Below are positions 26,598-30,615 of a stretch of 42,873 nucleotides of DNA, piece after piece. A program made the position numbers and the translations under genes. Under the pieces are notes generated by a model that was not told the origin of the DNA, did not search any database, and saw only the letters and a program-made list of their open reading frames with translations. Numbering within the stretch: position 1 is the stretch's first letter; every line of letters starts with the position of its first letter. This stretch comes from an uncultured Lewinella sp. (lineage in GTDB: Bacteria > Bacteroidota > Bacteroidia > Chitinophagales > Saprospiraceae): contig CALEDI010000222.1 in assembly GCA_937949535.1 (NCBI GenBank), positions 1 to 42,873 of the forward strand. The letters are read 5' to 3'.

Positions 26598-27428
26598 CTA
26601 ATAATTTTCCTCGTTCAGCCTACCCCCGCAATACTTACAGTACAGGGCGTCATCGGCGTGTCCTTCGCGTGCGCAATAGCGGCAAACCTGGGTGTTGGTG
26701 TAATTGCTTTCGCTGTCGGGGCCAAGCATCTCGCTGGTAACGATGCCGGTAGGCACGGCGATGATGGCGTAACCGAGAATCATCACAACCGCCGAAAGAA
26801 ACTGACCAACGGAAGTTTGTGGGGTAATATCCCCATAGCCAACCGTGGTAAGGGTTACAATTGCCCAATACACCGAGCGTGGGATGGAGCTAAAGCCTTG
26901 GTTTTCTCCGCCTTCGATCAAGTACATCACCGAACCGATGATCACGACAAGTAAGGTAACCGTGAAGAGGAAGACGGTGATTTTGTTTCGGCTAGCGATG
27001 AGTGCACGCCGCAATTGGTCTCCTTCGGTAAGAAACTTACCAAGTTTAAAAATCCGGAAAACCCGTAGCAGCCGCAGAATCCGGATGATGACGAAGTACT
27101 GCGACCCCGCCAAGAAATAACTCAGATAACTGGGTAAAATTGCGATCAAATCAATGATGCCATAAAAACTGAGTGCGTACTTCCAGGGCCGAATAGTGAC
27201 CCAAAGCCGCATCACGTACTCGACGGTGAAAATGATCGTGAAGATCCACTCCAAAACGTCGAAAATTGCCCCATACTGGTTGTACCAGTCTTCCGAACTC
27301 TCCAACATCACAACAATAACGGACAAGACGATGAGTACCAGCAAGCCAATGTCGAACCACTTTCCGGTTCGGGTATCAGCCTCAAAAACAATCTCATGTA
27401 CTCGGTCCCGAGTTCGGCGGTTGGCCAT
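26598..27428 (-). CDS. Voltage-gated K+ channel-type ion transporter with C-terminal zinc-ribbon-like motif
   Basis: S4-like RILRLLRVFRIFKLGKF, selectivity filter TLTTVGYGDITP, C-terminal CRYCAREGHADDALYCKYCGG. Confidence 0.93.
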   Translation of the reverse strand: MANRRTRDRVHEIVFEADTRTGKWFDIGLLVLIVLSVIVVMLESSEDWYNQYGAIFDVLEWIFTIIFTVEYVMRLWVTIRPWKYALSFYGIIDLIAILPSYLSYFLAGSQYFVIIRILRLLRVFRIFKLGKFLTEGDQLRRALIASRNKITVFLFTVTLLVVIIGSVMYLIEGGENQGFSSIPRSVYWAIVTLTTVGYGDITPQTSVGQFLSAVVMILGYAIIAVPTGIVTSEMLGPDSESNYTNTQVCRYCAREGHADDALYCKYCGGRLNEENY

Positions 27429-27584
27429 TTAAATGGAAATTTGGGCCAAAGATAAGTTAGAGGATACGTTTGGGGAGGAAGACTAGCTGTTTGTTATGCA
27501 CACCCTGCCCAAGAAATGCGCTACCAATAATAGAAAAACAGTACATTTGTTCTTTGAGAACAAGAACCGATTAAAAAAACAAGT

Positions 27585-28349
27585 ATGCTACTTAACGCCG
27601 TGATCATTGAAGATGAGCGCAATGGCCTCATCAATCTTAAGCACCTTTTAGCAGAACACTGTAAGGATGTGGAGGTGATTGGAGATGCTGGTGGCGTACA
27701 GAGCGGGTTGGCTCTTTTTAAACGTGATGACATCAAGCCAGACATTGCATTTCTGGACATCAACCTGCCCGACGGCAAGGTGTTCCAACTACTCAACCAG
27801 TTGCCCGAAATTCCTTTCGATGTGATTTTCGTTACAGCCTACGATCAATTCGCGATGAAAGCCTGTGAATACTCAAGCATCGGTTATATCCTCAAGCCAA
27901 TTGACCCAGACAAGCTCGTCGAAGCCGTCGCCCGTGTTCGGCCCCGTTTGCAAGGCCGTACGGAAGAGCGCCTTCAGGTGATGCAACAGTTCACCAGCCA
28001 CCCGAATTCGTTCGAGAAAATGTCCATCGCAGCACTAGATGGCATCCATTTTGTCAAAATAAGGGACATTGTTCGCTTTGAGGCTGAAGATAACTACACC
28101 CATATTTTCCTCAAGAGTGGCAACCGTATTACGGCCTCTAAAACCATCAAGGCATATGAGGACATGTTGGTGCCGTTTAACTTCTATCGGGTGCATAAAC
28201 GCCACGTCATCAACATGAATTATATGAAAAAATTCGTTAAAGGTGACGGAGGGTACCTCATCATGGATGACGACGTAAAGATAGAGGTGAGCCGGAGAAG
28301 AAGACCCGCCTTTATGACACAACTTAGAGTTCTTCAAGACGTTCTTTAG
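27585..28349 (+). CDS. LytTR-family response regulator
   Basis: REC domain (AVIIEDERNGL, DIAFLDINLPDG, FVTAYDQFA) and LytTR domain (IVRFEAEDNYTHIFLKSG, FYRVHKRHVINMNYMKKF). Confidence 0.96.
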   Translation: MLLNAVIIEDERNGLINLKHLLAEHCKDVEVIGDAGGVQSGLALFKRDDIKPDIAFLDINLPDGKVFQLLNQLPEIPFDVIFVTAYDQFAMKACEYSSIGYILKPIDPDKLVEAVARVRPRLQGRTEERLQVMQQFTSHPNSFEKMSIAALDGIHFVKIRDIVRFEAEDNYTHIFLKSGNRITASKTIKAYEDMLVPFNFYRVHKRHVINMNYMKKFVKGDGGYLIMDDDVKIEVSRRRRPAFMTQLRVLQDVL

Positions 28350-28455
28350 GTTGTGTCAATAATTAGTGCTATTTTTGAACCGGTATATTATTCGCCTTGA
28401 TCGGCACCTTCCGCTTCACCAGCGGTATGTTTTCAAACGAAGTTAAGGATTGTTT

Positions 28456-28608
28456 ATGTCAAAAAATGGGAAAAAAACTATTGAAGAGCTGAAACGAGAG
28501 CAGAAAGGCAAGGTTCTGGATCGTAAGAGCATGGACAAGGTTGTCGGTGGTAAGAAGCGCCGTGGAAGCTGGCTGCGCCGCGTCTGCGGAGGCATTATGC
28601 CACAATAA
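28456..28608 (+). CDS. Small 50-aa ORF with Gly-Gly-leader-like motif; candidate secreted/signal peptide precursor
   Basis: MSKNGKKTIEELKREQKGKVLDRKSMDKVVGGKKRRGSWLRRVCGGIMPQ; AAGGA 6 nt upstream of ATG; same strand as and between the response regulator and kinase; absent from the supplied ORF track, apparently because of its length. Confidence 0.6.
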   Translation: MSKNGKKTIEELKREQKGKVLDRKSMDKVVGGKKRRGSWLRRVCGGIMPQ

Positions 28609-28662
28609 ACTGTTGTAGGTTTGCGTCCTAAAAGTCTTCATCTTACACCGGACGCGAACTCA

Positions 28663-30615
28663 ATGACAGGAACCGAAACGACCACTACGGCGGCGGCTGT
28701 TGCACTAGAGGCAAAGCTAGCCCAAGCAACAGACCCTCTTCTCCAACTCAGCTTTCTAAACGAACTTATTGCAGGTTACGTTTATACGCGCCCCGAACGT
28801 GCAAAACTACTGTTGGCCCGTTTGAAGGACTTATTGTCCACTACATCTTCTTCCGAATCAGACTTTTACTACTGGCTTCTCCTAGGCAACCTAGAGAACC
28901 AAGAATATGATGACCAGAAAGCATTGGCGTCTTTCCAACGCGCAGTTGCTCGGGTAGACGATCATGGAGACATTGCGGAAAAAATTGAAGTCTATCTTGA
29001 TTACCTAGGCATCTTGGTTAACCTAGAACGTATGGACTTGGCCCGAGAATACTACGACCGTAGTCTTCGTCTACTAGAATCTTACTCCTCAGACCGCCTC
29101 CGCTCCCGTGCGCTTTGCCGGCTTGGGTATTTCTATCTACACGACCACGGATTTGCCAAAGCAACACCCAAATTCTTGGAAGCCCTTGGCCTTCTAAACG
29201 GAGGAACCTTTGAACTGAACACAAAAGACCATTACTTCTACACACTAGCACAGACAGGGCTTGGCACCCTCTGGATCAGGCCAGACAGTGAAGAAAAAGC
29301 GGCAAATGCCTTCCGGTCAGCAATTGCTCGGTGCGAAACCATCGGGATGAACGCTCGGATTCCTTGGATCAAACTGAACCTCGCCAACGTTTTGGCAGAT
29401 TCGGAAGAGTACGGTAACGAAGCAGAAGAAATTTTTCGCTCTATCATCAACAGCGGAGCCAATGGTAGTAAAGCTGCGATGCTGGCAGCCTACACCAACC
29501 TAGGGACCTACCTTAACGAAAAGAACAAGTCTGCGGATGAAATAAAGCCACTACTAGACGAAGCTGAGGCTATCTACCAGAAACTAGAGCATCCCAAAAA
29601 AGAAACCTTGGTGTCTATTGAAATGACGCGCGCTCAACTTTTTCTTGATGAAGAAGACTACGCGAGCGCCATCCAAAAGCTACAGGATACGCTCGAAATT
29701 GTAGAGCAAGCGAAAGATCCCGACAATTTAGTGCTCAATGGCTATGCTGCTGAGCTTTGCCAGTCGCTGGCCAAGTCTTATGCTGCTATCGAGGCGTACG
29801 AACTGGCTTACTATCACCAACGGAACGCAGACTACTTTCTCGACATCCACTACGAACTGCAAGATGCAAAACGACAGGAAGAATTTGCTGCTCGTTTTGA
29901 GGCCGAGGCGCGCGAGAAAGAGCGGGAAAGCCTCCAACTCCGGGCCAGCCAACTCCAGCTTAGGGCACTACGTGCGCAAATGAACCCTCACTTTTTATAC
30001 AACGCACTGAACAGCATCCAGTCGTTTATCACTACTAATGATGCCAGCACGGCCTCCAAATATTTGGCCAAATTTGCCATGCTGATGCGGCGCAGCTTAG
30101 AGTACACCAACCGGGAATACATCACACTTGAGGATGAGATGGAATTTCTTCAAGATTACCTCGACATCAACTGCCACCTTCGTTTTGACGGCAAGCTCAC
30201 CCACCTTGTCGAGATTGCTGGAGAGTTGGAAGAGGATATTATTGGAGTGCCTACTATGATCTTGCAGCCTTACGTTGAAAACGCAATTGAACATGGCTTG
30301 CGCAATAGACCCCGAGGGCATATCAGTGTCATCTTTCATTCCATCCCCGACGATGATGACAACATTATCGCTATTGTAACTGATGATGGTATAGGGAGGG
30401 CTAAGGTTGCTGAAATGCAGGCCAACGATGTTACCCGGCCGTACCACCAGTCTCGTGGTACTGAAATCACTAGGTCTCGCCTAGAACTATTGACCGACGA
30501 CCCGCAGAATCGGGTATTGATTGAGGATCTTTTTCATGAGGACGGGACGGCTGCTGGCACAAAAGTGACCGTTCGCATCCCCTTGGCAGATGTTCTGCCT
30601 CGGCGCGGAAGATAA
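28663..30615 (+). CDS. Cytosolic TPR-domain sensor histidine kinase, LytS/His_kinase (PF06580) type; start placed at MTGTETTTT
   Basis: TPR repeats, coiled coil, then LRAQMNPHFLYNALNSIQSFI, LQPYVENAIEHGL, VTDDGIGRAK; no evident TM segment. Confidence 0.93.
   Translation: MTGTETTTTAAAVALEAKLAQATDPLLQLSFLNELIAGYVYTRPERAKLLLARLKDLLSTTSSSESDFYYWLLLGNLENQEYDDQKALASFQRAVARVDDHGDIAEKIEVYLDYLGILVNLERMDLAREYYDRSLRLLESYSSDRLRSRALCRLGYFYLHDHGFAKATPKFLEALGLLNGGTFELNTKDHYFYTLAQTGLGTLWIRPDSEEKAANAFRSAIARCETIGMNARIPWIKLNLANVLADSEEYGNEAEEIFRSIINSGANGSKAAMLAAYTNLGTYLNEKNKSADEIKPLLDEAEAIYQKLEHPKKETLVSIEMTRAQLFLDEEDYASAIQKLQDTLEIVEQAKDPDNLVLNGYAAELCQSLAKSYAAIEAYELAYYHQRNADYFLDIHYELQDAKRQEEFAARFEAEAREKERESLQLRASQLQLRALRAQMNPHFLYNALNSIQSFITTNDASTASKYLAKFAMLMRRSLEYTNREYITLEDEMEFLQDYLDINCHLRFDGKLTHLVEIAGELEEDIIGVPTMILQPYVENAIEHGLRNRPRGHISVIFHSIPDDDDNIIAIVTDDGIGRAKVAEMQANDVTRPYHQSRGTEITRSRLELLTDDPQNRVLIEDLFHEDGTAAGTKVTVRIPLADVLPRRGR

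Follow-up and report, generated by a model that had tools for sequence, protein, structure and literature searches.

The DNA analysed here (the window, 42,873 nucleotides) belongs to a draft genome, 88% complete, whose named relatives are Neolewinella and Lewinella. On its forward strand, genes for a LytTR response regulator (RR), a 50-aa peptide with a Gly-Gly (GG) leader and a TPR histidine kinase (HK) follow one another, with the following features:

27542..27549, + strand: TACATTTG, Bacteroidota-type -7 box (TAnnTTTG, motif match) upstream of the regulator gene
27585..28349, + strand: LytTR response regulator, 254 aa (Pfam receiver PF00072, 1.5e-12; LytTR PF04397, 4.5e-18), stop codon at 28347-28349
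28370..28377, + strand: TATTTTTG, -7 box (TAnnTTTG) of a separate peptide/kinase promoter, at a conserved offset
28379..28426, + strand: three direct ANCGGY repeats, spaced at exactly 21 bp, as a candidate regulator operator, in 7/7 nearest-clade loci
28456..28608, + strand: gene of the 50-aa GG-leader precursor peptide, ATG at 28456, TAA at 28606-28608
28456..28551, + strand: leader, residues 1-32, ending in a GG that is invariant in the alignments
28552..28605, + strand: predicted 18-aa core KKRRGSWLRRVCGGIMPQ, with cleavage after GG deduced from the leader motif
28585..28605, + strand: C-terminal tail CGGIMPQ (P49 and Q50 invariant in the first alignment, A1; pN/pS 0.065)
28663..30615, + strand: soluble TPR histidine kinase, 650 aa (Pfam PF06580, 5.5e-23; TPR_12, 3.6e-7; HATPase_c, 1.3e-4)
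28690..29787, + strand: TPR sensor domain, kinase residues 10-375 (AF2 helices; Foldseek matches to LGN and Rap-pheromone complexes)

A first-pass annotation, made from the letters alone, had already described the small ATG..TAA ORF, whose sequence is exactly as written there, and it was equally right about the AAGGA located 6 nt before the ATG (28445-28449) and the 54 nt that separate the peptide gene from the kinase ATG (28663); the gap between the regulator stop and the peptide gene, given as 107 nt, is 106 nt. The peptide and the kinase are in one reading frame, with a lone TAA and no other stop between them (28606-28662), an arrangement also seen in the near relatives L032 and L034 and absent from L035, and a TTG start 12 nt past the peptide stop would lengthen the kinase. 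This shared frame is probably due to chance.

The 50-aa ORF is a real protein-coding gene. The host genus, Neolewinella/Lewinella, is represented by 21 genomes, and tblastn detected orthologues of the peptide in 17 of them, window included, 13 of these 17 being named records; the peptide is single copy in this genus, with an identity of 53-90% in the 16 other congeneric genomes, and weaker orthologues occur across the family, which groups marine Bacteroidota. At E <= 1e-3, a profile search recovered it in 46 genomes out of the 299 in the order, every one of them a member of the same family. The conservation and substitution analyses that the first-pass annotation had proposed point to purifying selection, the pN/pS of the peptide frame being 0.19 when pooled over 16 genus copies and 0.02-0.24 in ten chosen pairs, whereas the alternative frames give 1.96 (+1) and 2.30 (+2) and are interrupted by stops in nearly all copies. 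Conservation and pN/pS therefore rule out a chance ORF. Beyond the family, a search of 398 genomes of the phylum yielded only leader-type GG peptides, none with the CGGIxPQ tail, and among the curated precursor models the best NCBIfam match reached 11.1 bits against a cut-off of 40, with zero Pfam matches.

In terms of anatomy, the proposed Gly-Gly leader is borne out by the orthologues: G31 and G32 are invariant in both the 24-member and the 27-member alignments, position -4 of the leader is V, I or L and position -12 is L, I or V in most members, while position -7 is M in most and Q in some. The precursor shows both marks expected of such leaders, a GG fixed at the end and, in most members, hydrophobic residues at -4 and -12. 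Constraint is strongest in the C-terminal tail CGGIxPQ, which was overlooked in the first-pass annotation: pN/pS is 0.20 in the leader, 0.22 in the middle and 0.065 in the last seven residues, G45, G46 and I47 are nearly invariant in the first alignment, and the constant end reads CGGI[MVILT]PQ. By contrast, the stretch from the GG to the tail differs in length and sequence (KKRRGSWLRR here, KKGKNKNWNNG elsewhere). Three genomes of another genus have strongly diverged peptides in this slot; missed or insignificant in the earlier profile search, these peptides keep the GG and end in CQGELPQ, CLGDLPQ and CDGKMPH, so that distant slot members retain C-x-G-x-[ILM]-P-[QH]. As for the single Cys announced for the core, it is present here but dispensable, since some orthologues have A, Y, L or V in its place. 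A Cys-dependent lantibiotic or disulfide peptide was accordingly rejected, since the Cys is not conserved and modifying enzymes are absent; more generally, neither an immunity gene nor a modifying enzyme nor an adjoining transporter was found beside the peptide gene.

The RR-peptide-HK order recognised in the window is kept on one strand in 36 distinct loci, collected in successive locus surveys (26 + 7 + 3). Of the 299 genomes of the order, 49 have a regulator orthologue (49-94% identity), and every one of these genomes belongs to this family. Some genomes depart from the common arrangement: the peptide and kinase genes lie together with the regulator elsewhere (G051), the regulator and peptide genes have no adjoining kinase and a second peptide copy stands alone (G053), a 40%-identical regulator accompanies the peptide (G048), or a second, lone peptide copy is found (G189). 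In genus g90, more distant relatives, with the tail FGGTIPQ or similar, are apart from the regulator; at seven loci (L068-L072, L074, L077), these relatives are 65-75 aa long, with a GG leader and a GGTIP[QL] tail, and lie apart from regulator and kinase, and the regulator orthologue of this genus (about 50%) is likewise without a kinase.

Upstream of the peptide gene, the two TAnnTTTG boxes, which we take to be -7 promoter elements of the Bacteroidota type, suggest separate promoters for the regulator and for the peptide/kinase pair. Other genus members also carry TAnnTTTG upstream of the regulator, at a varying distance. Among the 9 nearest loci, 8 have the peptide-promoter box at an identical offset, and TAnnTTTG is found in 12 of the 17 genus loci, the chance of such a box being 1-8% per locus. 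The three direct repeats, first spotted by eye and then tested, sit downstream of this -7 box; their CGGY cores are 94% identical pairwise, compared to 40% for the spacers, and they form the only such triple repeat in the window. The rest of the genus is without the 21-bp triple repeats, and a genome-wide regulon scan for them in the own genome gave 4 matches versus 6 in the control, hence no enrichment. LytTR operators are known to consist of direct repeats spaced by two turns of the helix, and the location of the present repeats, past the -7 box, would fit negative autoregulation.

Regarding the sensor, by evoking AgrA, ComE and BlpR the first-pass annotation had implied a membrane receptor of the AgrC/ComD type, which does not hold: the kinase is soluble, no segment rising above 0.9 in its KD19 hydrophobicity profile, and none of the full-length orthologues inspected has a clear membrane segment. 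A ComD/AgrC-type receptor is thereby ruled out by the lack of a hydrophobic segment in the kinase and by its all-helical TPR model. More precisely, the AF2 model, computed from 19 sequences (pLDDT 84.7, pTM 0.62), consists of TPR helices (residues 10-375), a long coiled coil and a kinase core. The top Foldseek match in the PDB is the eukaryotic LGN; among bacterial sensors, the best are pheromone-bound Rap proteins (8rtc, 8rst and 4gyo; TMt 0.57-0.66). At the sequence level, the TPR proteins matched by the kinase profile include RapJ (2.7e-5) and Rap3T. The peptide backbone is held in RapF by a conserved Asn of the TPR domain (PMC3601957). In the kinase, Asn279 is invariant and Asn239 nearly so, a parallel that is only suggestive because consensus TPRs carry the same Asn; TPR folds are generic, and consensus TPRs share the N-L-G motif as well. 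An AF2 model of the read-through peptide-kinase fusion, which is a fusion and not a model of a complex, leaves the peptide unplaced (pLDDT 27-50).

The first-pass annotation had also called for a genome search for a C39 transporter, and one is present: the single C39 domain of the own genome belongs to an ABC transporter ORF of 731 aa (G000:C254, E 1.8e-33) that is followed by an HlyD-like gene and lies on a contig separate from the peptide module, to which it is unlinked. Nineteen C39-bearing congeners each contain one single-copy orthologue, 58-93% identical. The possibility that a peptide encoded beside the transporter is its real substrate was dismissed, as a simple GG-ORF filter detected no GG peptide alongside C39 in the 19 congeneric loci. 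A 21-position leader profile revealed no other GG-leader peptides in the own genome, although the target peptide was missed as well, and the unlinked C39 gene could serve other substrates. Across the 299 genomes of the order, C39 is present in 49/49 regulator-positive and 46/46 peptide-positive genomes, while neither a regulator orthologue nor the peptide occurs in any of the family's C39-lacking genomes, at least 25 in number (Fisher 6e-16 for regulator and C39, 6e-14 for peptide and C39, kinship of the genomes being ignored). Conversely, five C39-bearing genomes of the family are without a regulator orthologue. Regulator, peptide and C39 are all absent from G013 and G019, which are sister species, so that their joint absence counts as one event; in G018 the regulator is cut by the contig end, and G009 is 55% complete. 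Besides, a second kinase ORF of the TPR-PF06580 type, with a hydrophobic segment, adjoins the own C39 transporter (L045, 231-1379). In G053, which has one C39 gene, clusters of other GG-leader small ORFs were observed at L080/L081 (C97, about 18.5-20.8 kb; C132, about 54.6-55.1 kb), some of which end in CPPPDPED or similar; these are likely bacteriocin-like peptides, with tails unrelated to the peptide family described here.

Several known systems share part of these features. The ComCDE and BlpC-RH systems also encode a GG-leader peptide together with a LytTR regulator and a kinase, rely on a C39 ABC exporter and have operator repeats spaced about two helical turns, as does the candidate operator here; however, their receptor is a polytopic membrane protein whereas a soluble kinase (PF06580) carries a TPR sensor here, and the transporter is unlinked. 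Sensing of the peptide in the cytoplasm would thus separate the module from ComCDE and Agr. In the RRNPP systems (Rap-Phr, PlcR-PapR, PrgX), a small propeptide gene similarly adjoins the gene of a cytoplasmic TPR receptor, the TPR fold found here matches Rap-pheromone structures, and the functional end is at the C-terminus. The differences are that the receptor is here a 650-aa histidine kinase with a separate LytTR regulator rather than a single receptor-effector of 250-500 aa, that the leader is of the GG/C39 type and not Sec or PptAB, and that the host belongs to the Bacteroidota, while the RRNPP survey describes Gram-positive Firmicutes (PMC10075063). The module is therefore mechanistically nearest to RRNPP, yet not a member, given its kinase receptor, its GG leader and its different phylum. 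Finally, bacteroidetocins and Bacteroidales GG-leader RiPPs share the GG leader followed by a basic residue, the C39 transporter and the phylum (PMC6671954, PMC10352776), but a bacteroidetocin possesses two to four Cys, a 42-48-aa core, an adjoining PCAT and usually a thiol oxidoreductase, compared to a core of about 18 aa, one dispensable Cys and a fixed CGGIxPQ end here, where no PCAT, thiol oxidoreductase or modifying enzyme adjoins the peptide.

The conserved GG-leader precursor, the RR-peptide-HK order and the C39 co-occurrence support the peptide-signalling module put forward in the first-pass annotation. A GG-leader precursor that is co-inherited with C39, and whose gene sits between those of a soluble TPR kinase and its LytTR regulator, is most plausibly the signal for this kinase, and we give about an even chance to the ORF being the signal-peptide precursor of a three-gene module, processed by C39 and read by the soluble TPR kinase. 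The C39-peptidase ABC transporter encoded elsewhere in the genome would cut the leader (1-32) after the invariant GG, releasing a core that would end in the conserved CGGIxPQ tail. Since the sensor is cytoplasmic, the peptide would have either to return to the cell once exported or to be sensed without leaving it; its tail, either free in the cytoplasm or brought back into it, may be recognised by the concave face of the TPR domain, as Rap proteins read Phr peptides. The kinase would then set the phosphorylation of the LytTR regulator, which may bind the repeats phased at 21 bp in the peptide/kinase promoter and so control its own signal, perhaps negatively.

Other readings have to be weighed against this one. 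The peptide might be a secreted effector, bacteriocin-like or other, controlled by an RR-HK pair that responds to another cue, in which case the kinase would not sense it. The GG leader, the basic core, the C39 co-occurrence and the existence of GG-leader bacteriocins in Bacteroidota (PMC6671954) are all compatible with this, as is the persistence of the peptide beside a regulator without kinase in G053 and G048. We nonetheless consider it unlikely: the core tail is nearly frozen family-wide, unlike fast-evolving bacteriocins, which speaks for a conserved partner rather than for a toxin of that kind or a strain-specific pheromone, and the gene is single copy in the genus, with no immunity gene, modifying enzyme or adjoining transporter.

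Two further readings keep the peptide inside the cell. In one of them, slightly less probable still, the kinase reads the unexported precursor, so that the system would monitor how its transporter or the envelope is faring, with no cell-cell signal. The cytoplasmic sensor, the synthesis of the precursor next to it and the joint loss of module and C39 fit this; it is, however, the core tail rather than the leader that is most constrained, although the precursor contains the tail too. In the other, the GG is not a processing site and a purely intracellular small regulatory protein binds the regulator or the kinase, in agreement with the conserved RR-HK slot, the short basic protein and the soluble sensor. 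This appears improbable in view of the strict co-occurrence with C39 and of a GG that is invariant in all family members examined while the neighbouring residues vary in type and length.

Under the signal-precursor reading, the module constitutes a complete and testable candidate, comprising a signal gene, a soluble receptor kinase, a regulator, a candidate operator and an exporter, and it occurs in cultured Neolewinella strains. If the reading is true, it would join GG/C39 export with TPR sensing in the cytoplasm, which have so far been described in separate systems, and the fixed CGGIxPQ tail hints at a signal common to species and genera. At less than even confidence, we tentatively extend this to a Gram-negative counterpart of RRNPP, in which a C39-processed GG peptide, taken up or retained, would be read by a soluble TPR kinase as a form of two-component quorum sensing in many genera of one Bacteroidota family. 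In the open journal papers searched, the GG/C39 peptides of Bacteroidota appear only as bacteriocins or RiPPs (PMC6671954, PMC10352776), and no peptide-signalling system of this kind was found there for the phylum.

At the locus itself, the regulator gene has as its divergent neighbour a gene on the - strand (26598-27428) for a voltage-gated K+ channel-like protein with a TVGYGD filter, which carries a zinc-ribbon-like CxxC pair at its C-terminus.
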